Positions 15,854-59,247 of a DNA stretch of 64,000 nucleotides are shown in pieces (position 1 is the stretch's first letter; each line of letters starts with the position of its first letter). The stretch spans positions 1 through 64,000 of the forward strand of contig CANMZT010000002.1 of NCBI GenBank assembly GCA_947502405.1. Reading direction: 5' to 3'. The position numbers were made by a program, and so were the translations under genes. The notes beneath the pieces are model-generated. The model worked only from the letters and a program-made list of their open reading frames with translations, was not told the origin of the DNA and ran no database searches. Source of the stretch: an uncultured Algibacter sp. Lineage in GTDB: Bacteria; Bacteroidota; Bacteroidia; Flavobacteriales; Flavobacteriaceae.

Positions 15854-15899
15854 CGAAAATATGATGTCCTGTAGGTTTTTGCATCCTGTACTGTTATGC
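15854..15899 (-). promoter_or_regulatory. Activator-type promoter of the NCS1 transporter
   Basis: On the minus strand: core CAGTACAGGAT (15883-15893), a 21-nt spacer, then TATTTTCG (15854-15861) in place of TANNTTTG. The upstream half of the direct repeat is degenerate. An additional TCCTGT hexamer lies inside the spacer (15867-15872). Start codon 67 nt beyond the -7 box. Confidence 0.65.
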
Positions 15900-15984
15900 T
15901 TAATGAATATCAGTAAATTTATTTAAAGTATTAAATAAAATGAATAATAAGACACTGATAAAAGTCGAAAAATACCCTGATAAT

Positions 15985-16030
15985 ACAGGTCAGAACAGGA
16001 TGGATTTACTTTAAATTTTAGATAGTTTTA
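15985..16030 (+). promoter_or_regulatory. Activator-type promoter of lutABC
   Basis: ACAGGTCAGAACAGGAT (15985-16001), exactly 21 nt, then TAGTTTTA (16023-16030) as -7 box. Start of lutA 25 nt further on. Same order and orientation as four other promoters in the window. Confidence 0.75.
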
Positions 16031-16055
16031 ACTAACTAAAACCACGCAAAACCAA

Positions 16056-16808
16056 ATGACTAATAACACCATAAAAGTAGGGTTATTTATTCCTTGCTAC
16101 GTTAATCAATTATATCCACAGGTAGGTATTGCTACGCTTGAACTACTAGAGAAATTAGGAGTTGACGTTTACTATCCGCAGAATCAAACCTGTTGCGGTC
16201 AGCCTTTGGGTAATTCAGGATATGAACAAGATTCAAAAGGTATTTGCAACTTATTTGTTGAAAATTTCAGTGCCTATGACTATATCGTCGGCCCTTCAGG
16301 AAGTTGCATCTATCATGTAAAACATCATTTTGATATTTTAGAACAAACGCCTGAGGTAAAACGCGTTAGAAATAATGCTTATGAACTTTGCGAATTCATT
16401 GTAAAAATTCTTGGAAAAACAGATTTAGGTGCTTCGTTTCCTCACAAAGTAGGATTGCATAAAAGTTGTCATGGTTTGCGCGGACTTAAACTAGGAAAGT
16501 GTTCTGAAGTACAAGGCGAACATTACTCTACTGAAGAAGATTTACTAAAAGAAGTAAAAGGTTTAGAACTGATGGCACTTAATAGAAAAGATGAGTGTTG
16601 TGGTTTTGGTGGCACCTTTGCTGTTTTTGAAGAAGCAATTTCTTCTAAAATGGGAAAAGATCGTGTACAGGATCATTTGGATAGTGATGTGGAGGTGCTT
16701 ACTGGCGCCGACCATTCCTGCTTGATGCATATGGAAGGTATTGTGAATAGAAACAAACAACCACTTAAGGTAATGCATATTGCCGAAATACTAAATAGTA
16801 GTTTATAA
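16056..16808 (+). CDS. lutA: L-lactate oxidation Fe-S subunit LutA
   Basis: A 250-aa protein with the two cysteine-rich CCG domains of LutA/YkgE and glycolate-oxidase GlpC/HdrB-like subunits: CYVNQL with NQTCCGQPLG in the first half, HKSCHGLRG with ECCGFGGTF in the second. LutABC together oxidise L-lactate to pyruvate; LutA carries an Fe-S centre. It is 3 nt from lutB. With an FMN lactate dehydrogenase in the neighbouring rhamnose operon, it gives a second way to oxidise the lactate formed from L-lactaldehyde. Controlled by the shared activator promoter. Confidence 0.93.
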   Translation: MTNNTIKVGLFIPCYVNQLYPQVGIATLELLEKLGVDVYYPQNQTCCGQPLGNSGYEQDSKGICNLFVENFSAYDYIVGPSGSCIYHVKHHFDILEQTPEVKRVRNNAYELCEFIVKILGKTDLGASFPHKVGLHKSCHGLRGLKLGKCSEVQGEHYSTEEDLLKEVKGLELMALNRKDECCGFGGTFAVFEEAISSKMGKDRVQDHLDSDVEVLTGADHSCLMHMEGIVNRNKQPLKVMHIAEILNSSL

Positions 16809-16811
16809 GTT

Positions 16812-18179
16812 ATGGGGCACGCACAAAAAGCAACTGAATTTAATAAAGACGAAGCAAAAGTAAATTGGCATGATAAAGCTTTGTGGTACGTTAGAGAAAA
16901 ACGTGACAAATCTGCACATAATGTTCAAGGTTGGGAATATTTAAGACAGCTAGGATCTGGCATAAAAGCCAATGTTTTATCAAACCTAGATGAGTATCTC
17001 ATTCAATTTGAAACAAATGCAAAAAATAATGGTATCCAAGTGCATTGGGCATCAAACGCTGAAGAACACAACACTATCATAAACAGTATACTTGAAAAAC
17101 ACAATGCTAAAAAGGTAGTAAAAAGTAAATCTATGCTAACCGAAGAGTGCCATTTGAATCCGTTTTTGGAATCAAAAGGCATTGAAGTTGTAGATACAGA
17201 TTTAGGCGAGCGTATTGTTCAATTGGCTGAAGAACCACCAAGCCATATCGTATTGCCGGCGATACATAAAACCAAAGAAGATGTTGATGTGTTATTTCAA
17301 GAGCATTTAGACACCAAACCGAGTGGTGGAAACCCAGAATATTTAGTTGGTGAAGCTAGAAAACATCTTAGAGATAAATTCCTTAATGCCGATGTAGCCA
17401 TTACTGGTGTAAATTTTGCCGTAGCGGATACTGGTGGCGTTGTAGTTTGTACAAATGAAGGTAATGCAGATATGGGCGTACATTTGGCTAAAGCCCATAT
17501 TGCTTGTATGGGCATTGAAAAAATTATACCCCAAGAAAAGCACTTAGGTGTATTTTTAAGATTGCTTGCCAGAAGTGCAACTGGACAACCTATTACAACC
17601 TATTCTTCACATTTTAACAAAGCTGAAGAAGGTAAAGAAATGCACATAGTTATTGTGGATAACGGAAGAACCGAGCAACTAAGTAGAGAAGACTTTAGAG
17701 CCTCACTTCATTGTATACGTTGTGGTGCTTGTATGAACACCTGCCCTATTTATAGGAGGAGTGGCGGCCATAGTTATGATTATACCATTCCTGGGCCTAT
17801 AGGCTCTATTCTTTCACCAGGAAAGGATTTAAAAAAGCACAGTTCGCTGCCATTTGCATCAACCTTATGTGGTTCCTGTTCCAATGTTTGCCCTGTAAAA
17901 ATTAATATTCATGAACAGCTCTATAAATGGCGACAAATTATTGTTCAAGAAGAAAAGCAACCCATTGTAAAAAAATCGATTCTAAAAACTGCTGGTGTAG
18001 TTTTATCAAAACCTAAGCTTTACAAAATGGCAGGAAAATCTGCTCGATTTGCATTAAAACATGCACCACGATTTATGATCTACAACAAGTTAAATGCTTG
18101 GGGTAAAGCCAGAGACTTGCCTGAAGTGAAACATGAGAGTTTTGATGAATGGTATAAAAAAAGACGTAAAAATGAGTAG
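16812..18179 (+). CDS. lutB: L-lactate oxidation Fe-S subunit LutB
   Basis: A 455-aa LutB/YkgF-type protein. The N-terminal two thirds hold a LUD domain (residues about 60-290, with TGVNFAVADTGGVVVCTNEGN). Two 4Fe-4S motifs follow: CIRCGACMNTCP starting at Cys301 and CGSCSNVCP starting near residue 353. Length is normal for the family. The gene overlaps lutC by 8 nt, so translation of the three subunits is coupled. Electron acceptor is presumably the quinone pool, known for the family rather than shown here. Confidence 0.95.
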   Translation: MGHAQKATEFNKDEAKVNWHDKALWYVREKRDKSAHNVQGWEYLRQLGSGIKANVLSNLDEYLIQFETNAKNNGIQVHWASNAEEHNTIINSILEKHNAKKVVKSKSMLTEECHLNPFLESKGIEVVDTDLGERIVQLAEEPPSHIVLPAIHKTKEDVDVLFQEHLDTKPSGGNPEYLVGEARKHLRDKFLNADVAITGVNFAVADTGGVVVCTNEGNADMGVHLAKAHIACMGIEKIIPQEKHLGVFLRLLARSATGQPITTYSSHFNKAEEGKEMHIVIVDNGRTEQLSREDFRASLHCIRCGACMNTCPIYRRSGGHSYDYTIPGPIGSILSPGKDLKKHSSLPFASTLCGSCSNVCPVKINIHEQLYKWRQIIVQEEKQPIVKKSILKTAGVVLSKPKLYKMAGKSARFALKHAPRFMIYNKLNAWGKARDLPEVKHESFDEWYKKRRKNE

Positions 18180-18750
18180 AGAAGCCATATTAAACGCAGT
18201 AAAAAAGAATAAACCTGAAGTACTTCCTTTACCAGAAATTGATGTATCGGTATTTCAGGAAGATATTGATGTAGTAAAAACTTTTAAGGACAATTTAGCT
18301 TTAGTTGGCGGACAAGTTTTTGAGATTACTACTGATGCTATTGACGCTAAGATTAAGGAGCAGTACCCGAATAAATCAACTATTGTTACTACAACAACTA
18401 AATCTAACCTGGGTAATGTTGAAATTGATAAAAACACTGATCCGCATACACTTGAGCATATTGATTTAGCCATTGTTCAAGGAGAGCTTGGTGTTTCTGA
18501 AAATGGTGCTATTTGGATAACGGCAAATAATAGCTTGGTACGTGCACTTCCTTTTATCACCAATGATTTAGTAATCATTCTAGACAAGCGTAATATTTGC
18601 TTACACATGCTAGAAGCCTATGATAACATTGCTAAAAGAGATAGAGATTTTGGCGTGTTTATATCAGGACCGTCTAAAACAGCAGATATAGAGCAATGTC
18701 TTGTAGTTGGTGCTCACGGCGCTATGAGTTTAACGGTTTTATTGGTTTAA
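18172..18750 (+). CDS. lutC: L-lactate oxidation subunit LutC
   Basis: A 192-aa LUD-domain protein (LutC/YkgG). Start chosen at ATG 18172, overlapping the last codons of lutB; an earlier in-frame ATG at 18133 would add 13 residues that match nothing. Typical segments: SNLGNVEIDKNTDPHTLEHI, then QGELGVSENGAIWIT and a C-terminal FISGPSKTADIEQCLVVGAHG. The subunit completes the lactate-oxidising complex. Confidence 0.93.
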   Translation: MSREAILNAVKKNKPEVLPLPEIDVSVFQEDIDVVKTFKDNLALVGGQVFEITTDAIDAKIKEQYPNKSTIVTTTTKSNLGNVEIDKNTDPHTLEHIDLAIVQGELGVSENGAIWITANNSLVRALPFITNDLVIILDKRNICLHMLEAYDNIAKRDRDFGVFISGPSKTADIEQCLVVGAHGAMSLTVLLV

Positions 18751-18790
18751 AATATTGTCAATAGAAATTTAATAACATAAATTTAAAACA

Positions 18791-19567
18791 ATGAAAAAAT
18801 TAGCTTTTAGCATATTTACTTTTCTTTTACTTACCAGTTTTCAGCAAACGCCAGATATTGAAAAGGCACTTAATGAAATAAACAACACTTTTAAAAACAT
18901 GGAAGTAAGTTTGTTACACTGGCCTGAAGACTTACAACCTAAATTGGGTAATCTTAAAAAAACTGCATTCATAGCTTTCCCAAAGAAAGAAATTAAAGGT
19001 AAGCTACCACTTCTTATCACATTACATGGTGGTGGTGGAAAGAAATGGAGTATTGAAGAACAACTTAAGCGTTCCGCTAAAGTAAAAGGACTCTCTCTTG
19101 CTGAGTTAGCTGGTAAAGATTTAATGCTATTAGAACCCAATTCTTTTGAAAAATGGGATCCTAAAACACTGAATATCATGTTAGATTATATACTTGAGAT
19201 CTATCCTCAAATAGATCAAAGTCGTATTTATGTGATGGGACACAGTATGGGTGGTCGAGGGTCTTGGGATTGGATTCAGCAATCTCCAGAACGTTTTGCA
19301 GCTGCAGCACCGGGAGGATTTAGTGGTGTTTCTGATAATGATAGTTTTGAAAAACTTGCTAATTTTCCTGTATTCGGGATGGTAGGTGGAGAAGATGGAA
19401 AAAACGTAGCCTCAGTAAAAAAAATGACCGATCTGTTAAAGGCCGCAGGTAATAAAAATGTAAAGTATATTGCTTTTCCTGGTGCCAATCATCCACAAGG
19501 AAACAAAAAGCTGTTTAGTCATGTAGAATGTGTGGATTGGATGCTGAACTTTTCAAATAATAATTAG
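18791..19567 (+). CDS. Secreted alpha/beta hydrolase
   Basis: A 258-aa protein with a signal peptide (MKKLAFSIFTFLLLTSF). It is an alpha/beta-hydrolase of the phospholipase/carboxylesterase or prolyl-oligopeptidase-like kind: nucleophile elbow GHSMGG (Ser about 151), the oxyanion region LHGGGGKKW, and probable acid and base in GGEDGK and GANHPQ. It is 40 nt after lutC and probably transcribed with it. Periplasmic de-esterification of an alga-derived sugar is an attractive role but is only inferred. The gene ends before a bidirectional terminator. Confidence 0.82.
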   Translation: MKKLAFSIFTFLLLTSFQQTPDIEKALNEINNTFKNMEVSLLHWPEDLQPKLGNLKKTAFIAFPKKEIKGKLPLLITLHGGGGKKWSIEEQLKRSAKVKGLSLAELAGKDLMLLEPNSFEKWDPKTLNIMLDYILEIYPQIDQSRIYVMGHSMGGRGSWDWIQQSPERFAAAAPGGFSGVSDNDSFEKLANFPVFGMVGGEDGKNVASVKKMTDLLKAAGNKNVKYIAFPGANHPQGNKKLFSHVECVDWMLNFSNNN

Positions 19568-19590
19568 ATAGTTTTAATACTTTAAATAAA

Positions 19591-19625
19591 AAAGCTCAGC
19601 TATTATTAATCTATAGCTGAGCTTT
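19591..19625. terminator. Bidirectional terminator between hydrolase and aldA
   Basis: AAAGCTCAGCTAT / ATAGCTGAGCTTT, 13-bp stem with 9-nt loop, flanked by A-run and TTCTTTT. Ends the lutABC-hydrolase transcript and the minus-strand rhamnose operon. Confidence 0.88.
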
Positions 19626-19648
19626 CTTTTATGAATTAAATAATACTT

Positions 19649-21088: not shown

Positions 21089-21140
21089 TGTGTAATAGCT
21101 TTTATTTAGTTATATTTCTTATAACTGTTTGATTTTGAAT

Positions 21141-22289: not shown

Positions 22290-22293
22290 ATTT

Positions 22294-23583: not shown

Positions 23584-23643
23584 TGTGTTTTGATTTGGAA
23601 ATAAGTTTTATAATTAGTTTTAACCTATTTATAGCTAATAGAA

Positions 23644-25020: not shown

Positions 25021-25028
25021 TCTTTTGG

Positions 25029-26309: not shown

Positions 26310-26334
26310 GCTTTTAAACTTTTCTTAATTAAAG

Positions 26335-26407: not shown

Positions 26408-28513
26408 TTATCTAACAAAGGCATTTGCCATACCTCCATCAACATTTATAATATTTCCTGTTGATTTATCAAGTATTCCAACTAAAGAGAATACACCGTT
26501 TGCTATATCATTTGGTGTAATAATCTCGTGTAAAAGATTTCTTTTTGCATAAAATGCTGGTAATTCTTCCACGGTAATACCGTTTGCTTTAGCTCTTCCT
26601 TCTGCCCAAGCGCCTTCCCAAATTTTACTTCCAACAATAACACCATCAGGATTTACTGTATTTACTCTTACTTTATCTTTTGCTAATTCAGCAGCTAATA
26701 AACGTACCATATGTTGTTGCGCTGCTTTTGCTGTTCCGTAAGCAACATTATTAGGACCTGCTACTAAACCGTTTTTACTAGCAATAGCGATATAATCACC
26801 TCCTAATCCTTGTTTACGAACAATAGCTGCAAACTGTTTTGCTAAATCAAACTGTCCCTTTACTAAGATGTTTTGTAAAATATTCCAATCCTTATCAGTT
26901 GTATCTTCTAAAGGTTTAGATATTGCTAATCCTGCACTGTGCACTATAATATCAACTCCACCAAATTCTACAACAGCTTTCTTATATGCACTTGCTATGG
27001 ACTCCGTATTTGTTACATCACAAACAGCATAAGTAGAAACATCTCTTCCATAAGTTCCATGCGCTTCAACAAGTGCATCTTCATTAATATCTGTTAGCAC
27101 AACATTGGCTCCTTCCTCAGCTAATTTATCAGCAATTGCTTTACCAATTCCACCACCTGCTCCTGTTACTAAAGCTACTTTGCGAGATAATGGCTTCTCT
27201 TTTGGCATACGCTGTAACTTAGCTTCTTCTAACAACCAATACTCAATATCAAAAGCTTCTTGTCTTGGTAAAGATGTATATTCTGTAATAGCCTCTGCAC
27301 CACGCATTACATTAATCGCATTAATATAAAACTCACTTGCAACACGTGTAGTTTGTTTGTTTTTTGCAAAACTAAACATACCAACACCAGGATATATAAT
27401 TATCACAGGATTAGCATCGCGAATTGCAGGACTATTATCTTTTTTACACGTATTATAATAATCAACATACTCTTGACGGTATGCTTCAAATGCTGGCTCT
27501 AACTTTTTCAAAATAGCATCAGCATCTGATAAATCTTCATTTTTATCTAAATCTAATACTAAAGGCTGAATTTTTGTTCTTAAGAAGTGGTCTGGACAAG
27601 ATGTTCCCATAGGAGCTAATCTTTCCAAATCATTACTATTGATGTATTCCATTACCACATCGGTATCAGAAAAGTGACCAATCATTCTGTTTTCTGAAGA
27701 ACACAACCCTCTTAATAAAGGCATTAATTGAGCTGCTTTTTCTAAACGCTCTTCTTGTGGTAAGCTTTCGACTTTTTGTCCGCCAAAAACTTCACCTTGT
27801 TCCTTTAACTTTTTTTCTATGTATTCAGAAGCCATTTCAATAACTTCTAAACTATTCATATAACATTCGTAAGAAGTATCACCCCAAGTAAATAAACCGT
27901 GACTTCCAAGAACAATACCTCTAATACCAGGATTGTCTGCTAAACATTTTTCTAACTGCAACCCTAAATCAAAACCTGGCTTTTGCCAAGGTACCCATCC
28001 CATAGTATCTCCCCAAATCTCTTTGGTTACTTTTTCACTATCCTTAGCAGCTGCTACAGCGATTAAGGCATCTGGGTGTAAATGATCTATATGAGCAAAT
28101 GGAAGTAATCCATGTAAAGGTGTATCAATAGATGGTGCTTTACTATCTAAATCGTAAATACAATGATTAAAAAGCCCTACCATTCTATCTTCATCATGCA
28201 AACCTTGGTATACATTTTTAAGATCTCTTAAACGTTTAGTGTACAAACCAGCTATTCCAGATCTGGTTAGAGTACCTATATCTCCACCAGAACCTTTAAC
28301 CCACATAACCTCAACTTCTTCATTTGTCAAAGGATCGGTTTCTATCGTTTTACAACTGGTATTTCCGCCTCCATAATTCGTAATTCTTAAATCGGCTCCT
28401 AAAATATTAGACCTGTATAAGAATAATTCCACTTGGTTATCACCTAAACTATCTGCTTTTTTATCATCCCAAAGATAGTCTACGTATTTAAAGTTTTTGG
28501 TTATGTTTTCCAT
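26408..28513 (-). CDS. rhaEW: Bifunctional rhamnulose-1-phosphate aldolase/short-chain dehydrogenase
   Basis: A 701-aa fusion. Residues 1-420 are a class II aldolase of the RhaE kind with metal ligands in FAHIDHLHPDA (His141, 144, 146). From about 440 a classical short-chain dehydrogenase follows: VTGAGGGIGKAIA cofactor loop near 450 and catalytic YGTAKAA. Known RhaEW proteins cleave L-rhamnulose-1-phosphate to dihydroxyacetone phosphate and L-lactaldehyde, and the second domain processes the lactaldehyde. First gene of the rhamnose operon with the shared activator promoter. Confidence 0.95.
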   Translation of the reverse strand: MENITKNFKYVDYLWDDKKADSLGDNQVELFLYRSNILGADLRITNYGGGNTSCKTIETDPLTNEEVEVMWVKGSGGDIGTLTRSGIAGLYTKRLRDLKNVYQGLHDEDRMVGLFNHCIYDLDSKAPSIDTPLHGLLPFAHIDHLHPDALIAVAAAKDSEKVTKEIWGDTMGWVPWQKPGFDLGLQLEKCLADNPGIRGIVLGSHGLFTWGDTSYECYMNSLEVIEMASEYIEKKLKEQGEVFGGQKVESLPQEERLEKAAQLMPLLRGLCSSENRMIGHFSDTDVVMEYINSNDLERLAPMGTSCPDHFLRTKIQPLVLDLDKNEDLSDADAILKKLEPAFEAYRQEYVDYYNTCKKDNSPAIRDANPVIIIYPGVGMFSFAKNKQTTRVASEFYINAINVMRGAEAITEYTSLPRQEAFDIEYWLLEEAKLQRMPKEKPLSRKVALVTGAGGGIGKAIADKLAEEGANVVLTDINEDALVEAHGTYGRDVSTYAVCDVTNTESIASAYKKAVVEFGGVDIIVHSAGLAISKPLEDTTDKDWNILQNILVKGQFDLAKQFAAIVRKQGLGGDYIAIASKNGLVAGPNNVAYGTAKAAQQHMVRLLAAELAKDKVRVNTVNPDGVIVGSKIWEGAWAEGRAKANGITVEELPAFYAKRNLLHEIITPNDIANGVFSLVGILDKSTGNIINVDGGMANAFVR

Positions 28514-28543: not shown

Positions 28544-28589
28544 CAAAAATAAATGAGTGTCTTATAATTTCTATCCTGTACTATACTGT
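28544..28589 (-). promoter_or_regulatory. Activator-type promoter of the rhamnose operon
   Basis: On the minus strand ACAGTATAGTACAGGAT (28573-28589), exactly 21 nt, then TATTTTTG (28544-28551). No -33 TTG is present; the operator takes its place, as for a promoter needing an activator. Confidence 0.78.
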
Positions 28590-28736: not shown

Positions 28737-28782
28737 ACAGGATAGTACAGGATTAGATATAGCCATTAAAGTCTTAAATTTG
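28737..28782 (+). promoter_or_regulatory. Activator-type promoter of fbp
   Basis: ACAGGATAGTACAGGAT (28737-28753), the best-preserved 10-bp direct repeat of the set, then 21 nt and TAAATTTG (28775-28782). Start codon of fbp 65 nt further. Confidence 0.78.
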
Positions 28783-28847: not shown

Positions 28848-29858
28848 ATGAACAAAAACTACATTACTCTAGGCGAATTTATTATAAACAACCAAAGCGA
28901 TTTTAAATACTCATCTGGAGAACTATCACGATTAATAAATTCTATTCGATTAGCAGCTAAAACTGTAAATCATGAAATAAATAAAGCGGGCTTAGTAGAT
29001 ATTTTGGGAGCTGCTGGTGATACTAATGTGCAAGGTGAAGACCAACAAAAACTGGATGTTTATGCAAACGATGTCTTTAAATCAGCACTTATAAACAGGG
29101 AAATTGTTTGTGGCATTACCAGCGAGGAGGAAGATGACTTTATAACAATTGAGGGTAAATACAATGCTCATGATAACAAATATGTTGTTTTGATAGACCC
29201 GCTTGATGGATCATCAAACATAGACGTAAACGAATCAGTTGGAACTATTTTTTCTATTTACCGAAGAACCACACCTCCAGGTATGCCGGTTAAAAAGGAA
29301 GATTTTTTACAGAAAGGAAACGAGCAAGTAGCTGCAGGTTATATAGTTTACGGAACATCAACCATGCTTGTTTATACAACAGGTAATGGGGTAAACGGAT
29401 TTACTCTTAATCCTGCAATAGGAAGTTTTTATCTTTCTCACCCTAACATGAAGTTTCCTGAAAATGGAAATATTTTCTCCTTAAACCAAGGAAATTATGC
29501 TCATTTCCCCCAAGGCGTAAAAGACTATATAAAATATTGCCAAGAAGAAAAGGACGACAGGCCTTATGCATATAGGTATATTGGCTCTATGGTTTCAGAT
29601 TTTCATAGAAATATGATTAAAGGAGGAATTTACATTTACCCAACCAGTTCAAATGCTCCAAACGGTAAATTACGTTTACTCTATGAATGCAATCCCATAG
29701 CTTTTTTAACTGAACAAGCTGGAGGAAAAGCCTCTGATGGATTTAAAAGAATTATGGACATCCAACCCTCAGAATTACATGAAAGAGCTCCTATTTTCTG
29801 CGGCAGTACAAAAATGGTGGAAAAAGCAGAATTTTTCATGCAAAAGAATAAGGGTTAA
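28848..29858 (+). CDS. fbp: Class I fructose-1,6-bisphosphatase
   Basis: A 336-aa class I FBPase with GITSEEED (residues 90-96) and the metal-binding DPLDGSSN (117-124), then a C-terminal [15 protein letters not shown] active-site strand. It hydrolyses fructose-1,6-bisphosphate to fructose-6-phosphate. Growth on rhamnose yields dihydroxyacetone phosphate and lactate and so needs gluconeogenesis. The shared operator couples it to the rhamnose operon. This is probably a second, inducible copy next to a housekeeping one; not checkable from the window. Confidence 0.95.
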
Positions 29859-29968: not shown

Positions 29969-31015
29969 ATGGAATTATTTAAACATGTTAAAATAGATGA
30001 AAATTCCAGAGTTCCTAAATATCAGCAAATAGTTGATTCTATAATAGAAGGGATTTCTCATGGAAATCTTAAAATTGATCAAAAAATACCATCAATAAAT
30101 AAATTCAGTGAAGAGTTTTACCTATCAAGAGATACAGTAGAAAAAGCTTATAGCATACTTAAAGAACGAAACATTATAACTGCTATAAGAGGTAAAGGTT
30201 ATTATGTTTCAAGAACAAAATTGATAAGGAAAATGAATATTTTGTTCCTAATCAACAAATTAAGCTGGTATAAAATGGAAATATATTATTCATTTATAAA
30301 CAGTATTGGTCCAAACTCTTACACAGATCTTCATATTTATCATTGTGACGAATCCTTATTTTTAAATTTACTAAGTAAACATAAAAAGGCGTATGATTAT
30401 TATATAATAATGCCGCATTTTAAAACTGAAGACCTTGAGCATACCAGTACAACTGATGCAGTATCTCTGGCTTTAACTAAAATCCCAAAAAACAAGCTTA
30501 TTATATTGGATAACAAAAATATACCTGTAAAGAACAATATAATCACTGTTTATGAGGATTATGAAAATGATATTTATAATGCACTAAAAACTGGTATTAA
30601 AAAGATTTCTAAGTATAAAAAGATAATCCTTATATACCCAAAAAACACAATTTACCCTTACCCAAAACGGATAAAAAATGGATTTATTAAGTTTTGCGTA
30701 GAACACAATTTAGACTTTGATATTATAGATAAAGTATATAATGATATGGTTTTGTTAAAAGGCGACCTATTTATTAGCATTGAAGAGGACGACTTAGTTA
30801 GATTAATTGAGCAAATAAGAGATAAAGAATTTGATCTTGGAAATGATATTGGCATCATTTCTTACAATGATACACCTTTAAAAGCCCTATTAGGGATTAC
30901 TGTAATATCAACTGATTTCAAAATAATGGGAGAAACAACTTCAACCATGATTCTAAATAGTGAGCGTGGTAAATATAAAGTTCCGTTTCATTTTATTGAT
31001 AGAAATTCTCTGTGA
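29969..31015 (+). CDS. GntR-type regulator with sugar-sensor-like domain, copy 1
   Basis: A 348-aa regulator. Residues 1-75 are a GntR winged helix-turn-helix (VPKYQQIVDSIIEGI, then SRDTVEKAYSILKERNII) and 76-348 a LacI/periplasmic-binding-like sensor (VISTDFKIMGETT near the end). In Bacteroidota such proteins sense intracellular sugars or their phosphates. It lies downstream of fbp and immediately upstream of a very similar second copy; the two share a nearly identical 71-bp stretch in the DNA-binding part. Good candidate for the regulator of the ACAGGAT regulon, but GntR proteins more often bind palindromes, and the hybrid sensor is the alternative. Confidence 0.82.
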   Translation: MELFKHVKIDENSRVPKYQQIVDSIIEGISHGNLKIDQKIPSINKFSEEFYLSRDTVEKAYSILKERNIITAIRGKGYYVSRTKLIRKMNILFLINKLSWYKMEIYYSFINSIGPNSYTDLHIYHCDESLFLNLLSKHKKAYDYYIIMPHFKTEDLEHTSTTDAVSLALTKIPKNKLIILDNKNIPVKNNIITVYEDYENDIYNALKTGIKKISKYKKIILIYPKNTIYPYPKRIKNGFIKFCVEHNLDFDIIDKVYNDMVLLKGDLFISIEEDDLVRLIEQIRDKEFDLGNDIGIISYNDTPLKALLGITVISTDFKIMGETTSTMILNSERGKYKVPFHFIDRNSL

Positions 31016-31083: not shown

Positions 31084-32130
31084 ATGGATATCTACAAGTT
31101 TATAAATATTGATGAAAATTCAAGGGTACCAAAGTATCAACAAATTGTCGATTCGGTCATAGATAACATATCTAAGGGGAATTTTCATATAGATCAAAAA
31201 ATACCATCAATAAATAGATTCAGTGAAGAGTTTTACCTATCAAGAGATACAGTAGAAAAAGCCTATAGTATTCTTAAAGAAAGAAATATTATTACCTCAA
31301 TACGCGGTAAAGGTTTTTATATTTCAAGAACTAAACTTATTTCAAAAGTTAATATCCTTTTTTTAATTAATAAGCTTAGCAATTACAAATTAAGGACTTA
31401 CAATCATTTTATTAATAATATTGGAGCTAACTCGCATACAGATTTACATGTTTATCATTGCGATGAAACTTTATTTTTGAATCTTTTAGAGAAGAATAAA
31501 TCTGCTTACGACTACTATGTTGTTATGCCACATTTTAAAACTGAAAATTTAAGACACATTAGCGCAACTGATAAAGCATTAAATTCATTAAAAAAAATTC
31601 CTCTTGATAAATTAATAGTTTTAGATAATATTAAACCTAATCTAGATGGTTGCTTAGGGGAAATTTATCAAGATTTTGAAAACGATATTTATGATGCTTT
31701 AAGTGAAGGAATCAATCGTATTAAAAAATATCAAAAAATTATTTTAGTTTATCCAGAAAAATCAGTCTACCCATACCCTAGAAGAATTCAACATGGTTTT
31801 AGAAAATTTTGCGTAGAACATAAGTTAGATTTTGAAATATTAGATAAAATCTATGATGATATGATTTTAAAAAAAGGGGACCTATTTATAACTATTGAGG
31901 AAGCTGATTTAGTAAATCTGGTTAAGCAAGTAAGAGAAGATGAATATAAGTTGGGGAGCGATATTGGGATTATTTCTTATAATGAAACACCTCTTAAAGA
32001 ACTTTTAGGTATCACAGTAGTGTCTACAGATTTCAAGGTAATGGGTGAAACAGCGGCTGAAATTATTTTAAACAAGAAAAAAACATCATTTAAAGTGCCT
32101 TTTCATATTATTGAAAGAGATTCTCTTTAA
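31084..32130 (+). CDS. GntR-type regulator with sugar-sensor-like domain, copy 2
   Basis: A 348-aa paralogue of the preceding gene, equal in length and clearly similar throughout. The helix-turn-helix is almost identical, the sensor more divergent, which suggests shared DNA targets but different ligands or dimer partners. It begins 68 nt after copy 1. A third relative lies at the right end of the window on the other strand. It is convergent with the Kelch gene, with only a 7-nt gap and no visible terminator between. Confidence 0.82.
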   Translation: MDIYKFINIDENSRVPKYQQIVDSVIDNISKGNFHIDQKIPSINRFSEEFYLSRDTVEKAYSILKERNIITSIRGKGFYISRTKLISKVNILFLINKLSNYKLRTYNHFINNIGANSHTDLHVYHCDETLFLNLLEKNKSAYDYYVVMPHFKTENLRHISATDKALNSLKKIPLDKLIVLDNIKPNLDGCLGEIYQDFENDIYDALSEGINRIKKYQKIILVYPEKSVYPYPRRIQHGFRKFCVEHKLDFEILDKIYDDMILKKGDLFITIEEADLVNLVKQVREDEYKLGSDIGIISYNETPLKELLGITVVSTDFKVMGETAAEIILNKKKTSFKVPFHIIERDSL

Positions 32131-32137
32131 ACGCTAT

Positions 32138-37672: not shown

Positions 37673-40228
37673 TTAATTAAACACTAGTTTTTTAAACGAG
37701 TTTTTAATTTTTACGATGTACAATCCTCTTGAAAAATTAGAAATATCAATTGATTGTCCTCTTCCAGACAAAACCTTTGCACCAGTAATTGTATACACTT
37801 CCCATTGTTCATCAACAGTATTTCCTTTTATCCTGAAAATTCCTTCTGAACTTGGATTTGGATAAAAAATAAGATTTTTATTCAACTTGTTTTTGTCTAT
37901 AGATAAACCTTCTTGCACAAACGTGGCTGTGATATTTAAGTTAGAATTTACAGTTATTGTTAAAGGGTTTTCTGTACTTTCAATATCTCCAGTCCAGCCT
38001 TGAAACTCCCAACCTTCTTCCGCAATTGCATTTAAATCAAATTGCTGACCTCCAAAAGAAGTTCCACTTGTATAATTTAGCAAGCCATTGCCTACTTTAG
38101 TTAATGTTACATCAAAAACCTCGTTACCTGTATTGGGTATAAACTCTATTCTATCAAAAACAATACTACCTGTATTTACACTTTCATATACCTTAAATTC
38201 ATTAATAATACCTTCCCAATGCGACCAGTTTGTTAAATCTACGTCTATAGTATACCACTGATTATCATTGGGGATTGTAATTTTCTTTCTACCTGATGCA
38301 AATTCTGTACCTGGAATATTTGCGGCCATTTGAAGAAAAGTATCTTCTGTACTATTTTTAACAACTAACTGTAAGGTGTCATACAAATCAGAATTAATAT
38401 TTAACCCTGTAATTGCTGCCATTGGGAATGCAAATCCGTTTGAATAATTCAAGGTTAATTTATCATCATCTGTATTTATGCTCATTCCAGAACTAACTGC
38501 TGTCCAAGGCGCAAAATCTTCTGTAGTTGTCCATACTACAGTTGCAGGTGTAATAGGGGTTGTTAAATAATCTTCTGTTCTAAATTCAAACTTTTCGAAA
38601 GCAAATGATGGCAGTTCGGTATCTACAGATATTACGGAACCAGATTCACCGTCATTACGTGCAGTTGTTATAATGCTTTTCCATTCACTATAGGTATGTG
38701 GGTTTGGATTATCGTAGGCTTCATATGCAGATAAACCAGCTTCGGTTAAGATTCTATCTGGAGAACCTCTATCATTAAATCCACTTTTCACATAACCTAA
38801 CCCGGAATTATCATCTAAGAAATTTTGAAGTTTGTTATTGTCTTTTCCATAAGAAAGGCTTCTATAATAAAGCGTTGTACCAGTAGGCAATTCTGAATTA
38901 AACGATACATTTACAGCTTCATTATCTAAATAATTAAGTGAGCTACCGTTGTAATTGTATATTAAAACATCATACTCTGTTTCGGTTTCACTTTTTGCGA
39001 AAAACGCATCTAAATCATTATTAGAATTATTGGGTGTACCAGAAATATCCGATGTATAACGGATTTTATTATTCATTGTGTTTAAGCTCGTTATCGCTGG
39101 AGGATCTTCCGTCCCTACTTTATTACCCCATCTATATATTAAATCTAAGCCCTCCTCTTTATTCTTATAAAAAATATTAGAAAAATACAACTCTACAATT
39201 TCAGCATGAGAAGTATCATTGTTGATAAACCCTTTACCATCAGCACCATTCATAGTTGTTACTGTGGCATACTCCATCAAATCGATAGTAGCGTTGGAAT
39301 TCCATTTAGGATTATTCACTAAATCTGCAAAGAGTTTATCATATTTAGTTTGCATATTTCGCAAACCACTATTACCTATAATTACGTAATCTGATATTCC
39401 CCAAAAATCATATTGCACGTTATTATCAAAACAGTATTCTATTAAATCATCTACAAAGGAGGCAAAAGGTTCGCCTTTATAATTTAAAACACTACCGTTT
39501 CTATATAAAAAATCTGGGGCTCTTGTATGTAAACCAATAACAGCATTAGGCAAAACAGCTCTTACCGCTTTTTCTGTATTTTCAAAATGTTCAATAAAAT
39601 CTTGTTTGGTTCCAAACCAATGATCGGGAGTTTCTATTTCAGAGCCCACTCTAAAACGCCATGATAACACTTTTTCTTCACCATAAGTATCAACTAAATG
39701 CGTCATTAACGCTTTTATATAATCATGGTAAGCTTCCTTATTCGCTGGTGGAAGGGAATTTCCATAAATTGAGATTTGCTCATCTTCCCTAAAGTTAACA
39801 TTATCTCTAGAACCTGTTGGAATAAAAGTATATCCGTGTTGAAAAGCCCAAGAAGGTTGGTCTAATACGATTTGATGTATCTCTGTTTGAGAGTTGATTA
39901 TTTTATCTAATCTATCGGTCAACCGTTCAAATCTATAGACATACACATTATTGATAGAATCATACAAACAGGTATCAAAATCTAAATCTTTCATTCGTAC
40001 TCCATTTACAATTTTATTGATTCCGCCAATCATCCTTACTGTATTCATTTTAAGTCCTGGACGTATATTAGATCCATTCTTTGGGCTAATTCTATTGGCT
40101 ATAGACCATATATTATGTAAAGGCTCGTTTTTTTTAGAATCATCAGTGAAATCTGTAGAAACCTGAACTTGAGCATTTATATTAGGAAGGAAAAAAGCAA
40201 AAAACACTAAAACTAAAACTCTTTTCAT
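37673..40228 (-). CDS. GH39-like glycoside hydrolase with CBM-like and T9SS domains
   Basis: An 851-aa protein (start at the second Met, MKRVLVLVFF, giving a clean signal peptide). A TIM-barrel of GH39/GH-A type spans about 25-370: acid/base candidate in RFRVGSEIETPDHW and nucleophile candidate in IDLMEYATVT. After a beta-sandwich come a carbohydrate-binding-like domain (about 560-710), an InlB-type B-repeat (GWEFQGWTGDIESTENPL), and a T9SS type A sorting tail (LIFYPNPSSEGIFRI). Secreted and surface-attached. Substrate unassigned; a weak activator-type promoter at 40276-40310 precedes it. Confidence 0.75.
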   Translation of the reverse strand: MKRVLVLVFFAFFLPNINAQVQVSTDFTDDSKKNEPLHNIWSIANRISPKNGSNIRPGLKMNTVRMIGGINKIVNGVRMKDLDFDTCLYDSINNVYVYRFERLTDRLDKIINSQTEIHQIVLDQPSWAFQHGYTFIPTGSRDNVNFREDEQISIYGNSLPPANKEAYHDYIKALMTHLVDTYGEEKVLSWRFRVGSEIETPDHWFGTKQDFIEHFENTEKAVRAVLPNAVIGLHTRAPDFLYRNGSVLNYKGEPFASFVDDLIEYCFDNNVQYDFWGISDYVIIGNSGLRNMQTKYDKLFADLVNNPKWNSNATIDLMEYATVTTMNGADGKGFINNDTSHAEIVELYFSNIFYKNKEEGLDLIYRWGNKVGTEDPPAITSLNTMNNKIRYTSDISGTPNNSNNDLDAFFAKSETETEYDVLIYNYNGSSLNYLDNEAVNVSFNSELPTGTTLYYRSLSYGKDNNKLQNFLDDNSGLGYVKSGFNDRGSPDRILTEAGLSAYEAYDNPNPHTYSEWKSIITTARNDGESGSVISVDTELPSFAFEKFEFRTEDYLTTPITPATVVWTTTEDFAPWTAVSSGMSINTDDDKLTLNYSNGFAFPMAAITGLNINSDLYDTLQLVVKNSTEDTFLQMAANIPGTEFASGRKKITIPNDNQWYTIDVDLTNWSHWEGIINEFKVYESVNTGSIVFDRIEFIPNTGNEVFDVTLTKVGNGLLNYTSGTSFGGQQFDLNAIAEEGWEFQGWTGDIESTENPLTITVNSNLNITATFVQEGLSIDKNKLNKNLIFYPNPSSEGIFRIKGNTVDEQWEVYTITGAKVLSGRGQSIDISNFSRGLYIVKIKNSFKKLVFN

Positions 40229-40275
40229 ATTATGAATATTCAACATCGTTATATCTTTTAAAATTTATTATTGTG

Positions 40276-40310
40276 ACAATTTACACTTAATCCAACAACT
40301 AACTATCCTG
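40276..40310 (-). promoter_or_regulatory. Weak candidate activator promoter of the GH39-like gene
   Basis: On the minus strand CAGGAT (40305-40310), 21 nt, TAAATTGT (40276-40283). The left half-site is not conserved and one base of the core differs. Spacing is the same as in the five better sites. Confidence 0.3.
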
Positions 40311-40380
40311 ATGTGTATTGAATAAACTCTAATGTTTAGAAATTTATAGTATTACAGACCAAAACTTTTAGCGTTTTTGC

Positions 40381-49088: not shown

Positions 49089-49105
49089 CTTTTAAAGTTT
49101 AGATT

Positions 49106-52585: not shown

Positions 52586-55500
52586 TATTTAGTGCTGTTC
52601 TTTTTTATAATTTTTGAAGTTGAAATGGTAACAGGCCCTAACAAACCTGAAGGCAATAATTGATCTGTTGGCTTTTGAAATGAATACGCACTAAATGTAG
52701 TACGTGGTCCTTCTGGAAGTGGCTGATTTTTTCTAAACCATTCTGGCATTTTTTCCATATCTCCTCTAAAATTTGAATCCCCAAAACCTGGTTTTCCTCT
52801 TCTTATGTAATATCCTGTTTGGTTGGGTAACTTTTCATCTCCAATTAAACGGTTGGTCCATTGGTTTGTAACTTCTATTCGTAATTCGTTAGTTCCTTGC
52901 TTTATTGCATTTGTAATGTCTAAGTTATGAGGTGCAATCCAACTTACCCCAATTTCTTTATCATTTAGAATTACTTTTGCAATCACATTAACCTTACCTA
53001 GATTTAGTTGGAATTTTTTATCGGAATCCAATACACCGCTCTCAATATGAAATGTGGTTTTATAAATTGCTGTTCCAGAATAATGCTTTATTTGTTCTGT
53101 TTCGTGGGTCGTCCAATCGAATAAAGTATCTGTATTTAGGGTTGCTTTGTAATTGTCTTCTTCTCTAAAATTAATTTCCCAATTCCCATTAATAGCCATT
53201 GGTTTAGAAATATCATTTACATTATTATTCCACTTCTCAGAATCGTTTACTAATGCAGCATAGTGTCCATTTTGGTACACCTCCATTTGTAAATTATTTT
53301 GTTTATCTAAACTATACGATGGTTTTGGTAAATTTTGAGACGACTGATCTACTACTTTAGGTCGTTTATTTTTTTCCTCTTTAAATACTACAAAAACCGA
53401 TTCCCGTGGGTTCATCTCTACCGAAATATCTGTTCTTCCATTGGCACTGGTATACTCAACCAGTTTGGTAATCTCGCCTGTTTCCGCATCCCAAAGTTCT
53501 GGTACTTTTCCATCCACTAAAAAGCTGCAGTTTAGGGTTTCAGATTGTTCTAAGTTATGATTGTAAATAAAATAAATATCCTCTTTTTCAGTTCGTCTGT
53601 GGTAGAAGTTAAAATCGGGTTGCCCTTCAACTATCAAATCTTTTTGAATGTTATTTTCTTTAAAAATCTGTTCCCATTCACCTTGACTGTACGTCGTTTT
53701 TCGAGACCAAATGTCATCAACTAAGCTTTTAAATTCGGCTTGCATAGCTTCAGTAACTAAATATCCTCCTAGTTTTTTTGGTTTTCTTCCAACAATTAAA
53801 GCGCCTTGTTGAGCGAGTTTGTGCACGCCTCTTAGGGTTTCTAAGTTGATGATGTCATTTTTTTGTAAAGCCAGTGCATTGTAAGTAATTCCGTTGGGTA
53901 GCTTCAATTTTCCGTCTTCTACTTTTAAACCGTTGATAATAACATCTGCATTTACACAATCGTATTTATAAGATGTTGGTAATTTTGGACGGATTTGGTT
54001 GGAATGAATCACATGGCTTGGAGCTCTATCTCCCACAAAAACCAAAAGGTCTAGTACAGGATTTCCCTGACGTAACATATAAGAACCTCTTGCCAAATAG
54101 GCAAACCATTCATGACCTGCATTGTCCCACCAAGTTTGTGTACGGTCTATGTGCGATCCTACAAAACTCATACTCATTCCTGGTTTTACATGGGTATTAG
54201 ATTGATGTGCAAAACGATGAAACATGTATTCGTTAATCCCGTTTGTCCATTCGTAATCTCCTTTTTGTTTGGCTAAAGCCGGATGAAAACTCCAATTTAA
54301 CTTTGTACTTGTAAACGCTTCTGCAGAAATGACATTTTTCCCGTAAATATGTCCCGAAGATACAGCTGCACGTTTATGGTTATTGGGTTTCCCTAACCAA
54401 AATTCTCCCATAGGAATATCAGCACTTCTACCTGCATCTAAACTATTAAAAGGTCCTACAAAGCCGTAAGGCTCTATATAAGAGATGAGTCCATCTTGAT
54501 GGCATAATTCTGTGAAATAATCAAAATAATTCGTGGTCATTAAGTCACTTACCAATTGTTTCATATCCCAGAAAACCCCATCAATAGTTTCGTTATTGTC
54601 TACATATTTACCAGCATACATTAGTAAAAAAGGGGTAAAGTCGTAGCCAAAACGGTCATGGAAAAGTTTTTCCATATCATCAGTCCAATTTTGTGGCCCC
54701 ACTTCGTAACTATCAATTTCTACATATTGTAACGCATTTGGTGCATCTACTTTTGCTTCTTTAACGAGTTTACCCACAAAGGCATCGTAGTGGATTTTTA
54801 ATGCTTCTTTACTGAATTTATCTACTTCTAGTCCAGTGCCTTCATCAGATGCTGGTTCGTTTGTAGCTCCAGAAGCAGTAAATCCAAAACGCATAATGGT
54901 CCAGTTTCCTTCTGGTAATTTTGTTTTTAAAATACCTGACTCATCCATTTTATCACTCAAAATAAGAATATCGTCTTTTTTGATATATGCACTACTACTA
55001 GGATTTCCTGTAGGTCTTCTGCGCTTTCTATAAGATGTATATTCTAGCAGGTTCTCTAAATTATGATTTGCCGAAAGTTGCATCTCATAAATTCCAGCAT
55101 CTAATTCGGTTTCTACTCTAAAATAGCGTGCAGTTACTGGTGCAAAACTTTCGTAGAAATAACATTCATCTTTTCCTATACGCTCTTCTCTTGGTTTTCT
55201 AACTAGTGTAAATTTTTTGCCATCGTCAGACTTTAAAAGTTTTAACCTGCCTTTACGTTTGTTGATAAAAACAGATAATGAGCGAATGGTATGTGCTTTT
55301 CCATAATCGTATTGTACCCAAGCTTTTGCTTTTAAATTAGCGTAAGTATTGCTTTGATAATCTGTGGCTAATGCTGCTTTAAAATTGGCATCAGAAGAGG
55401 TAATAATTGGTTTTACACTTTCATCAAGTAATTCTGTTTCTAAAGTTGGATACGCAACTACAGCAATATCTTTATAAAAATTATGTCTTGTTGGTGGTTG

Positions 55501-56001: not shown

Positions 56002-56141
56002 TGAATTATTTCTAACTACCATCTTTATTACAACTAAAAAGAAAGAGCAAAGCATTTACCACCAATAAACCTCCAACTATATAAACAACCGTTATCATTG
56101 TGCTATACTTTTAAATCACTTTAATTTTACCTTATGGACAC

Positions 56142-59100
56142 CTAATCAATAAACAACTCGTCAATAAAAGGTCCACTTTGTCCTGTAGTTTCTAATTTTA
56201 TATTATTGGCACCAGCTTTAAGCGTAATGATGGTTGGCACAAATTTCCATTCTTTCTCCCAACCACCAGTTGGTTTAAATTCTAGTGTTCTTATGTACTC
56301 ATCATTTACATATAATTTCATAGGGTGCATTTTCCCTTCGTTGTTATGCATGTACCTAAAACGAATACTGTAATCACCTCCTTCGCCATCGTTTTCCTGA
56401 TACCACGTAATGGCGCCTTCACCTCCTTTAAAATCCACAAAACCTGTTCCTTTAAAACGTCGCGCTTCTCTGCTTGATTTGGCAGTACCCTCTAAAATAC
56501 CTTCTTCAGCAGAAATATTTACACCACGACCAATCCACATATCTGCTGAATGTTCATCACCCCAAAACAAGCCTTCGTTTTTACCAAAGGTTTCTTCCAT
56601 TGTTAAAACTACATTACCGTTTTGTTTTACAACAGCTTTTACAGTTATACCATCTGAAATACTAAATGGTTTAGAATAAGGCTGACCTTTAACTTCAGGG
56701 TTATCGCCGTTTGTTGTATATAGAACTTCTAAATTCGATGTTGAAGTAGTTCCTAAAACCGAAATAACTTCGGTATCAATTGTAATTTCGTTTGATAGAT
56801 ATAATGCTTTATCACCCAAAATAGCACCTGTAATTATTGATGCTTGTTTAGCTTCTGGTTGCGCTCTTAAAAACAATCTTGTTTTTCCAAAAAACAAGGC
56901 TCTAAAATCGGATTTTGTTCTACTTGTTGGATCTATAGGATTTCCATTTTCCATAGACACTTTAGTAACATCACCTTGAATATTGTAGTAAATTTTATTT
57001 TCGCCGTAAGGATATAAATTATTGTTTTTGTCTAAACTTTCAGAAGTAATAATATAACTGGCTTCAAAACTGGCTTCTGCTTCTAATTTTTGAACACTTG
57101 TTTTTAATTTTGATGGCTGTTCGCTGGTGTTAAAAGATGTTCGTTTTACCTCTTTACCATCAATATAAGCCACAGCTTCAAGTTTTCCTTCCTCATAAGG
57201 CACCATCCACTCGCACTGCATTTCATTCCAAACAGTTCCGGGTTTGTCTTTACCCAATGATTTCCCATTTAAAAATAACTCTACCTCATCGGCATTAGAA
57301 TATACCCAAACTGGAATTACAGTACCTTCTTTCATTCTTGGGTGTGTCCAATGTGGTAACATATGAATCATAGGCTCTTGGGTCCACTGGCTTTTGTAGA
57401 AATAAAATAAATCTTTCTTAAACCCTGCTACATCAAGTGCGCCCCCCATAAACAAATTAAATGGTAATCCACCGTGAACCAAACCTGCCTCTCCGTAATA
57501 GTCAAAGCCTGTCCAACGAAAATGACCACTATGCCATGGCGTATCACGCATCACTTCCCAATATTTTCTTGCTGAAACGCGAACAGTTGTATTATCGTAA
57601 GAAGAATTAAAACGCTGTTTTCTATTTCTCCAGTTTTTTGGGTTGATACCTTCGTAGAAGAAAATTTCTTTTTCGGTTAAATTCGGCAACTCATAAGTCC
57701 CTGGCAATTCATTATCTCGCCACCACGTTTGTGTTCTGTAATACCCACGAGTTTGCCAAGTGTGTGGCGCTTCTGTAGAAATAAAAGGCTTTTCTAGAGT
57801 TTTACCTTCAATAAAAGACTTCGTTTCAGAACCCCCATTAACACCCTGAATATCCATGTCCTCAGGGTTTCCTGCGCCAGACGTAAATAATCGTGTTGGG
57901 TCTAAATTTTTACCAAATTCAACCATCTCTGGTGCTACATCGCTATGGGTTTCATTACCCAAACTCCACACGAAAATACTCGGGTGGTTTCGGTCTCTGG
58001 TTATCCATTCTTTTACATCGCGTTGCCACCATTCATCAAAAGCTTGCTTGCCATAATCTTGAGGTGCTTTTTTGTGCCAGCCATCAAAAATTTCATCCAT
58101 AACTAGCAAACCAATTTCATCACAGATATCGTAAAACATTGGTGGTGTTGGGTTATGTGACGGACGAATGGCATTAATCCCCATGTCTTTTAAAGACTGT
58201 AGTTTCCAGCGTAGCATAGGCTTAGTCCAAGCGCCTCCTACTGGTCCACCTTCCCAATGTTCACAAACACCTTTAAGTTTTACATTTTCACCATTTAACC
58301 AAAAACCTGTTTCTGTTTTCCACTCTACGGTTTTGAACCCGAAAGTGGTTTCCACTTCATCAATGACTCTTTTTCCGTCTAAAATTTGAGTTACCGCTCT
58401 GTAAACGTTAGGTGTTTCTGGACTCCATAATTTAGGATTTTCAACTTCAAGTTGGTATGTTGGATTTGAATTTGCTAATTTCTCACACTTATTCGTCAAC
58501 TCTTTTCCTTCAGGAGAAAACAATTTCACTTCGTATTTCAACTTTTTAAAGCTTCCATTTATTTCTGCATCAATACTTACAGTAGCGTTGTTTTCTGTTA
58601 TTGATGGTGTTTTAATAAAAATACTATTGGGCTTAAAATGGGTAGGATTGACCTCAATTAATTTTACAGGGGCGTAAATGCCACAAGGATGATACCAACG
58701 TGCAGATGGCTCCAAACTGTTATCTACTCTTACGGCAATGCTGTTTTTTCCTTCTTTTAAATGTTTTGAAATATCATATCTGAAACTGATGTAACCATAA
58801 GGGCGTTTTGCAATGTAATTGCCGTTAACCCAAACTTCACTATTCATATACACCCCATCAAAGTTGATGTATGTGGTATTTGAAAGACTTTCCTTTTTTA
58901 CATCAAATTGCTTTCTGTACCAACCAATGCCTCCATCGTGATAACCTCCACCTTGACCTTGATCGCCACCTTTACGCACCCCTTTTTCAAACGACCAATC
59001 GTGTGGTACGTTTAGGGTTTTCCAAGACGTATCATCTACATTTTCTTTTGAAAATGATGCGTTATCTTCTAATATGAACTGCCAATTGTTGTTGAAGTTT

Positions 59101-59171
59101 GATACAGTTCTTTGGGCGTGTGCAAAAGCTATTGAGAGAGTGAATAATAAGAGTACAAAGCTATTTTTCAT
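56142..59171 (-). CDS. GH2 glycoside hydrolase with C-terminal CBM-like module
   Basis: A 1009-aa GH2 enzyme. The start is MKNSFVLLL at 59171: the upstream ATG (59204) lies inside the promoter's -7 box, and only this start gives a signal peptide. Domains: N-terminal sugar-binding sandwich (to about 180), Ig-like, TIM barrel with acid/base Glu407 in SLGNETHSD and nucleophile Glu467 in STEAPHTW, DUF4982-like, and a final CBM-like sandwich (ITWYQENDGEGGDYS). First gene of the PUL run. Likely removes a beta-linked side sugar; the exact sugar is open. Confidence 0.9.
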   Translation of the reverse strand: MKNSFVLLLFTLSIAFAHAQRTVSNFNNNWQFILEDNASFSKENVDDTSWKTLNVPHDWSFEKGVRKGGDQGQGGGYHDGGIGWYRKQFDVKKESLSNTTYINFDGVYMNSEVWVNGNYIAKRPYGYISFRYDISKHLKEGKNSIAVRVDNSLEPSARWYHPCGIYAPVKLIEVNPTHFKPNSIFIKTPSITENNATVSIDAEINGSFKKLKYEVKLFSPEGKELTNKCEKLANSNPTYQLEVENPKLWSPETPNVYRAVTQILDGKRVIDEVETTFGFKTVEWKTETGFWLNGENVKLKGVCEHWEGGPVGGAWTKPMLRWKLQSLKDMGINAIRPSHNPTPPMFYDICDEIGLLVMDEIFDGWHKKAPQDYGKQAFDEWWQRDVKEWITRDRNHPSIFVWSLGNETHSDVAPEMVEFGKNLDPTRLFTSGAGNPEDMDIQGVNGGSETKSFIEGKTLEKPFISTEAPHTWQTRGYYRTQTWWRDNELPGTYELPNLTEKEIFFYEGINPKNWRNRKQRFNSSYDNTTVRVSARKYWEVMRDTPWHSGHFRWTGFDYYGEAGLVHGGLPFNLFMGGALDVAGFKKDLFYFYKSQWTQEPMIHMLPHWTHPRMKEGTVIPVWVYSNADEVELFLNGKSLGKDKPGTVWNEMQCEWMVPYEEGKLEAVAYIDGKEVKRTSFNTSEQPSKLKTSVQKLEAEASFEASYIITSESLDKNNNLYPYGENKIYYNIQGDVTKVSMENGNPIDPTSRTKSDFRALFFGKTRLFLRAQPEAKQASIITGAILGDKALYLSNEITIDTEVISVLGTTSTSNLEVLYTTNGDNPEVKGQPYSKPFSISDGITVKAVVKQNGNVVLTMEETFGKNEGLFWGDEHSADMWIGRGVNISAEEGILEGTAKSSREARRFKGTGFVDFKGGEGAITWYQENDGEGGDYSIRFRYMHNNEGKMHPMKLYVNDEYIRTLEFKPTGGWEKEWKFVPTIITLKAGANNIKLETTGQSGPFIDELFID

Positions 59172-59201
59172 TAGTTTATTTTGAAATAGTTGTTGGTTAA
59201 A

Positions 59202-59247
59202 CAAACATAACTTATATAGGAGTCAAAATAATCCTGTTCTGTCCTGT
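59202..59247 (-). promoter_or_regulatory. Activator-type promoter of the ulvan PUL operon
   Basis: On the minus strand ACAGGACAGAACAGGAT (59231-59247), exactly 21 nt, then TATGTTTG (59202-59209). The distance from operator to start codon (60 nt to 59171) is close to that of lutABC and the rhamnose operon. Confidence 0.78.

Follow-up and report, generated by a model that had tools for sequence, protein, structure and literature searches.

The stretch of DNA considered here (hereafter the window) comprises positions 1-64000 of contig C2, which is 370 kb long and belongs to the 3.79-Mb genome of an uncultured Algibacter sp., a marine bacterium that feeds on seaweed. It carries the same short repeat in front of five genes or operons, and this raises the question of which protein reads the repeat and how it controls the genes behind it. 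An earlier note on the same DNA had described a common promoter design, with YAGWACAGGAT on the coding strand in one orientation relative to the gene, exactly 21 nt (N21) from there to a -7 box, and a second half 10 bp upstream in four cases. All of this holds. The 11-mer is found in all five promoters as part of a CAGGAYAGWR/CAGGAT direct repeat with a 10-bp unit, and a TANNTTTG-like box stands 21 nt downstream of it; the upstream half is clear in four of the sites and degenerate (GCATAACAG) in the fifth, at 15883. Judging from sequence comparisons, we consider it probable (roughly 0.8) that the repeat is the operator of a family of GntR/LacI-hybrid proteins, read head-to-tail over the -33 position, and that this family represents a rhamnose-type activator extended to ulvan genes. 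Ulvan is a green-algal sugar.

The candidate operators in the window are GCATAACAGTACAGGAT at 15883-15899 (-), with the -7 box TATTTTCG at 15854-15861, serving gene 14395-15786; ACAGGTCAGAACAGGAT at 15985-16001 (+), with TAGTTTTA at 16023-16030, in front of a lutABC-like operon starting at 16056; ACAGTATAGTACAGGAT at 28573-28589 (-), with TATTTTTG at 28544-28551, for the rhaEW operon; ACAGGATAGTACAGGAT at 28737-28753 (+), with TAAATTTG at 28775-28782, for fbp (28848) and the two gntR genes that follow it; and ACAGGACAGAACAGGAT at 59231-59247 (-), with TATGTTTG at 59202-59209, for the GH2 operon. In each of them the box stands at exactly N21. A weak candidate operator, TCAATACACATCAGGAT at 40305-40321 (-), scores 14.4 bits, has a poor -7 box and precedes the GH39-like gene 37673-40246. 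A sixth exact copy of the 11-mer, at 54052 (+), lies within a gene on the opposite strand, has no -7 box and looks like a chance occurrence.

The shared design turned out to be larger than had been claimed, comprising about 29 promoters, nearly all of them in a 215-kb region. A search of the whole genome with the 17-mer, allowing up to two mismatches, gave 15 matches vs none for the reversed pattern; 13 of them are on C2, and the strong matches cluster at promoters of polysaccharide utilization loci (PULs) and rhamnose genes. A looser 40-nt pattern with three mismatches gave 81 matches vs 73 for its reversed control, that is, background, so weak matches are meaningless. Positions 1-284000 of C2 were also scanned with a matrix. 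At 16 bits or more it yielded 27 matches, a count that is partly circular given that C2 itself supplied the training sites; all 27 are intergenic, and intergenic DNA comprises 10%. At 14 bits, 28 of 29 matches were intergenic, while 200 column-permuted matrices at 16 bits gave on average 0.7 and at most 5 matches. The first matrix was derived from 14 C2 sites that the 17-mer had picked out, and the second from 27 sites chosen by a combined score permitting gaps of 20-22.

Nearly all of the best C2 matches (26 of 27) precede a co-directional gene by at most 300 bp, and 23 of the 27 do so by 46-103 bp. They extend from 15.9 to 230.5 kb, the ulvan/rhamnose region. Between 14.3 and 232.1 kb, 27 of 58 promoter-sized gaps carry a site of at least 14 bits (a count that includes the weak site at 40305 and omits one of the 27 best, at 74437 in a long gap), compared with none of 13 gaps before and none of 19 after. 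With the site at C1:120348, before a PL28 gene, the genome has about 29 candidate promoters. The targets include PL28 ulvan lyases, BNR_4/ulvan-lyase-domain proteins, GH78 rhamnosidases, members of GH43, GH39, GH5 and GH2, SusC-type receptors, rhaEW, lut, and fbp; families are named only for the targets that were looked up, and a few first genes yielded no family. Three other candidates were rejected: C5:9885 (16.2 bits) has no suitable gene start within 400 bp, C9:107557 scores -3.6 bits, and C10:37755 (L029), upstream of a transketolase gene, is a single half-site of 4.1 bits, though at N21 to TATATTTG.

The alignment of the 27 C2 sites reads [AGT]CAGGAYAGWRCAGGATRS, in which CAGGAYAG recurs in direct orientation with a period of 10 bp; TAnnTT stands at columns 39-44, and there is no separate conserved -33 element. 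These aligned direct repeats speak against a palindromic site, and the near lack of conservation across the 40 bp upstream speaks against a longer site or a 21-bp period.

The proteins that we favor as readers of the repeat are encoded on the same contig. C2 as fetched holds four GntR/LacI-hybrid genes: a tandem duplicate at 29969-31015 (+), the widespread copy at 31084-32130 (+), a third paralogue at 63533-64000 (-), running on to contig position 64573, and gene 226358, a distant relative of the other three. The N-terminal GntR winged helix (PF00392) scores above the cut-off in 29969, 31084 and 226358, and is assigned to 63533 by homology only. The C-terminal LacI/periplasmic-binding-like domain (PF13377) is above the cut-off in 31084 and 226358, in a scan that covered these two and 29969; the last has no PF13377 match at 0.001, yet it is 68% identical to 31084. 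Within the tandem pair, identity is 97% in the helix region vs 63% in the sensor, so one operator may be read by proteins whose sensors differ. For the third copy the corresponding figures are 72-76% and 51-52%. A weak site (11.7 bits) is seen at C2 227359-227608, before the own gene of the 226358-type GntR; a search for a motif particular to this type gave no clear candidate.

With the four GntR proteins as queries, we kept 80 of 255 loci, all from named genomes, with at most 21 kb of DNA fetched for each. These loci come from other genomes, untouched by the matrix training, and were scored by the 19-bp site alone. A single GntR, nearest to 31084, is present in 63 of them, and nine hold the 29969/31084 tandem pair. 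The loci contain 166 sites of at least 18 bits, and 141 of these have TA..TT at exactly N21; 40 permuted matrices gave on average 1.2 sites and none at N21. Under a stricter definition of the -7 box, N21 was found in 111 of 164 cases, N20 and N22 in none, and N19 in 7. The own contig is looser: its 26 sites of at least 18 bits comprise 17 at N21, two at N20, one at N22, and six without the strict box at any of these spacings. A loose rule applied to the 141 N21 sites scores six three-unit and two four-unit arrays; four head-to-tail 10-bp units are seen at L047 18773(+) and L109 7611(+), in Ulvibacterium marinum and Zobellia russellii.

The earlier note had proposed as the binder either the AraC domain of a hybrid two-component system (HTCS) or the GntR paralogues, and the evidence favors the latter. 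C2 as fetched encodes two HTCS, at 59284-63336 (-) and at contig positions 211555-215595, as well as a GntR-FCD gene, 237464, outside the regulon. HTCS are the usual regulators of PULs, the one in the window places an AraC-type gene near the sites and adjoins the site-bearing GH2 operon, and some match to the HTCS sequence is present in all 28 site- or GntR-bearing genomes compared. However, the HTCS motifs predicted for Bacteroides are direct repeats with a spacing of about 21 bp (PMC3878776), whereas the period here is 10 bp and nothing is conserved upstream. Moreover, the fetched DNA of 77 of the 80 GntR loci showed no AraC-type protein, and 69 of these 77 still carry an intergenic site of at least 18 bits with N21. 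In 15 of 22 out-of-family genomes the AraC domain was reached by no match listed (28 of the 55 strong-GntR genomes were compared). Given the repeat period and the 77 loci, it is very improbable that either HTCS binds the repeat by its AraC domain.

By contrast, the GntR proteins and the site travel together. An intergenic site of at least 18 bits with N21 is present in 72 of the 80 GntR loci, and rhaEW is preceded by a site of at least 12 bits in 59 of 63 cases, always at N21. Among 395 Flavobacteriales genomes, 54 have at least two sites, 55 have a GntR match at E<1e-100, and 53 have both, so that all but one of the genomes with at least two sites also have the GntR. The site pattern matched 379 times vs 9 for the reversed pattern, and the 12 genomes having a site and no GntR match at all carry a single site each. 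The looser cut-off of E<=1e-20 brings the GntR genomes to 77, of which 54 have at least two sites.

Co-occurrence alone cannot name the binder, and some other regulator, encoded elsewhere and co-inherited with GntR, could bind the repeat instead. Against this, no other regulator is common to the 80 loci among the compared proteins, which covered part of the own contig, and in a second class of loci a variant motif adjoins the gntR gene itself; such a regulator thus seems quite improbable. Recognition by the GntR proteins would also fit the letters of the site, which differ between GntR classes although the geometry is preserved. Loci with divergent GntR lack the standard motif, and several have 10-bp repeats of their own. 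In the commonest divergent class (class 2), ACTGGTAGGTACTGGTA stands 21 nt before TANNTTTG, with the repeat ACTGGTAGGT ACTGGTA; this motif was derived from seven class-2 loci. Searching the 395 genomes for ACTGGTAGGTACTGGTA-N21-TANNTTTG, with N21 built into the pattern, gave 39 matches (20 without mismatch) in 30 genomes vs two reversed-control matches. All 30 genomes have a class-2 GntR, and 30 of the 39 matches lie 28-44 bp from its gene; four of the seven source genomes are among the 30 positives, which leaves 26 new ones. In particular, the class-2 repeat ACTGGTAGGT is seen beside the GntR gene at L119 9687(-), L121 9650(-) and L127 9748(-), and in L119 and L127 it is oriented toward a divergent gene that encodes about 350 aa.

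The proteins of the two classes differ in a stretch that probably corresponds to the recognition helix of GntR structures: it is mostly LSRDTVEKAY in class 1 and (L/I)SRDTVL.(A/G)(Y/F) in class 2. At a further locus, L126, a rha operon adjoins the gene of a GntR that is about 36% identical and has the helix ISRVTIEKGY; the locus has no standard site and carries GGACTGTATAGGACTGT upstream of a rhaT-like gene. Judging from this one locus, the motif goes with the GntR type rather than with the operon. The sequences show an operator of defined geometry and distribution, and they show that it varies along with the GntR type.

In Flavobacterium psychrophilum the TANNTTTG box is placed at -12 to -5 of the transcript start (PMC9723704); by that measure, the repeat would lie at about -50 to -34, over the -33 position. 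A TANNTTTG-like -7 box, a feature of housekeeping promoters in Bacteroidota, is found downstream of the site, and is missing or shifted at some promoters of the own genome. Repressors are common among GntR proteins, and a protein sitting at -50 to -34 might also block the polymerase, so the GntR proteins could bind the repeat, repress, and be released by a sugar. However, a repressor needs neither the fixed orientation nor N21 in 141 of 166 sites, and the lack of a separate conserved -33 element also speaks against it; we regard repression as unlikely. Activation is the likelier sign of control, since the fixed orientation and the nearly fixed spacing to the -7 box suit a contact with RNA polymerase better than a repressor.

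Activation by GntR, as we infer it, would start with two DNA-binding domains (winged helices) occupying the two 10-bp units head-to-tail at about -50 to -34, both units being on one face of the DNA, next to the polymerase. The bound GntR would replace the -33 element and activate transcription from the TANNTTTG promoter, and its LacI-like domain would sense L-rhamnose or a rhamnose-derived sugar. The ancestral task would be the rhamnose operon, and in ulvan degraders the operator would have been placed before more than 20 promoters of ulvan lyase, rhamnosidase, glycosidase, and transport genes.

The distribution outside the order bears on the ancestral task. This GntR is present in 15 of 198 Bacteroidia genomes, 11 of them outside Flavobacteriales. 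Eight of these 11 relatives adjoin a rha operon, and six of the eight loci have a site of at least 14.9 bits at the rhaEW, rhaT or NCS1-like promoter; hence, the rhamnose role looks ancestral. PL28 ulvan lyases are encoded in five of the 32 in-family genomes having a strong GntR and a site. All 11 PL28 genes in these five genomes (four in the own genome) have a site of at least 16.8 bits, 43-91 bp upstream. The PL28 sites (L139-L149) often read AGTTCAGGAT or AGSTCAGGAT.

Several observations weigh against an activating GntR at this repeat. The typical GntR site is a palindrome, and direct repeats are exceptional (PMC4494728). The co-occurrence of site and GntR in the 395 genomes has a Fisher p of 3e-62, which is overstated because the genomes are related and the E cut was set afterwards; the limits that separate the classes (E<1e-100; E 1e-71 to 1e-91) were likewise chosen after seeing the list of E-values. 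At E<=1e-20, 23 of the 77 genomes fall short of two sites: 21 whose GntR are all divergent, G163, which lacks a site and has one GntR of the 226358 type and one divergent GntR, and G291, with a strong GntR and one site. Conversely, G388 has two sites and divergent GntR only. The class-2 motif is missing from 14 of the 44 genomes with a class-2 GntR. In the loci L073, L077, L078 and L087, rhaEW has no site directly upstream, and of the loci outside Flavobacteriales, L136 has no site and L131 only a weak one. The HTCS gene and the third gntR (63533) had no site of their own in the scan of promoter gaps. The spacing is also imperfect: four of the 27 C2 sites fit N20 or N22 better than N21, and at the 11 PL28 promoters TA..TT is found at N21 in two cases, N20 in two, N22 in one, and at none of N19-N23 in six. 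Being mostly without a -7 box at N21, PL28 promoters may work differently or be weaker.

A broader proposal would be that Bacteroidota possess a class of GntR/LacI-hybrid activators that read a head-to-tail 10-bp unit replacing the -33 element, with letters that depend on the recognition helix and a constant geometry, and that in ulvan degraders several paralogues with almost identical DNA-reading domains and diverged sensors share the operator, so that the pathway answers more than one ulvan sugar. We advance this tentatively, as a possibility with somewhat more doubt than expectation behind it.

Compared with known systems, the novelty would lie in GntR/LacI-hybrid proteins having a direct-repeat operator in an activator-like position. 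The AraR subfamily of GntR (Bacillus subtilis AraR) has the same architecture, a GntR winged helix-turn-helix plus a LacI-like sugar-sensing domain. However, AraR is named as a repressor, one released by sugar, and its operators are palindromic, whereas the 27 sites here are 10-bp direct repeats in an activator-like position. The GntR profile matches the solved AraR chains 4egy and 3tb6 over both regions. The MocR regulators (PdxR, GabR, TauR) share the GntR DNA-binding domain, and many of them have direct-repeat operators and several are activators (PMC5320631); they differ in the repeat layout and in the aminotransferase-like domain, which was not found here in Pfam scans, and NCBIfam MocR matches cover the winged helix only, below the cut-off. 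Within GntR, direct-repeat operators have been described for MocR and some few other proteins (PMC4494728, PMC5320631).

Among rhamnose regulators, the DeoR-family RhaR is similar in that its rhamnose genes have imperfect direct repeats whose period is 10-11 bp (PMC3870299), although it belongs to another protein family than GntR. The HTCS and the AraC-type RhaR of Bacteroides also control PUL or rhamnose genes through direct repeats, but with a period of about 21 bp and with AraC domains (PMC3870299, PMC3878776). The rhamnose regulators given by Rodionova et al. (2013) are of the AraC, DeoR, and LacI types, and the words GntR and Flavobacteri- are absent from the main text of that paper (PMC3870299). 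The Bacteroides GntR regulators FucR and ManR are listed in PMC3878776, and the ulvan paper PMC8511951 names no regulator in the passages considered. Neither the motif nor a GntR regulator of rhamnose or ulvan genes in Flavobacteria appeared in any title or abstract start among the matches listed, in a search mostly outside subscription journals and outside supplements.

As for the window genes around the operators, rhaEW (26408-28513, -) encodes a bifunctional rhamnulose-1-phosphate aldolase/dehydrogenase, identified by NCBIfam equivalogs above the cut-off, and fbp (28848-29858, +) encodes fructose-1,6-bisphosphatase (PF00316, PF18913). A LutB-type protein was identified in the lutABC-like operon by the NCBIfam scan. 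The GH2 glycosidase (56142-59171, -) is the leading gene of its operon; its start is likelier to be the ATG at 59171 than the TTG at 59204, as the latter would overlap the -7 box. The label of an NCS1 transporter, given to 14395-15786 in the earlier note, rests on NCBIfam NCS1-type matches far below the cut-offs (43.5 bits of 326). A relative of this transporter is present in 41 of the 80 GntR loci, so it may carry a sugar. Just outside the regulon, at 12423-14137, there are two neighboring DUF2807 (head GIN domain) genes.

These findings provide a candidate regulator for the use of ulvan and rhamnose in marine flavobacteria, with a regulon of about 29 promoters open to direct testing. The two GntR classes, in which the letters of the site differ and the geometry is equal, form a natural set for studying the protein-DNA code. 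In addition, the near-fixed position of the site may make it a rhamnose-inducible promoter part for Bacteroidota.

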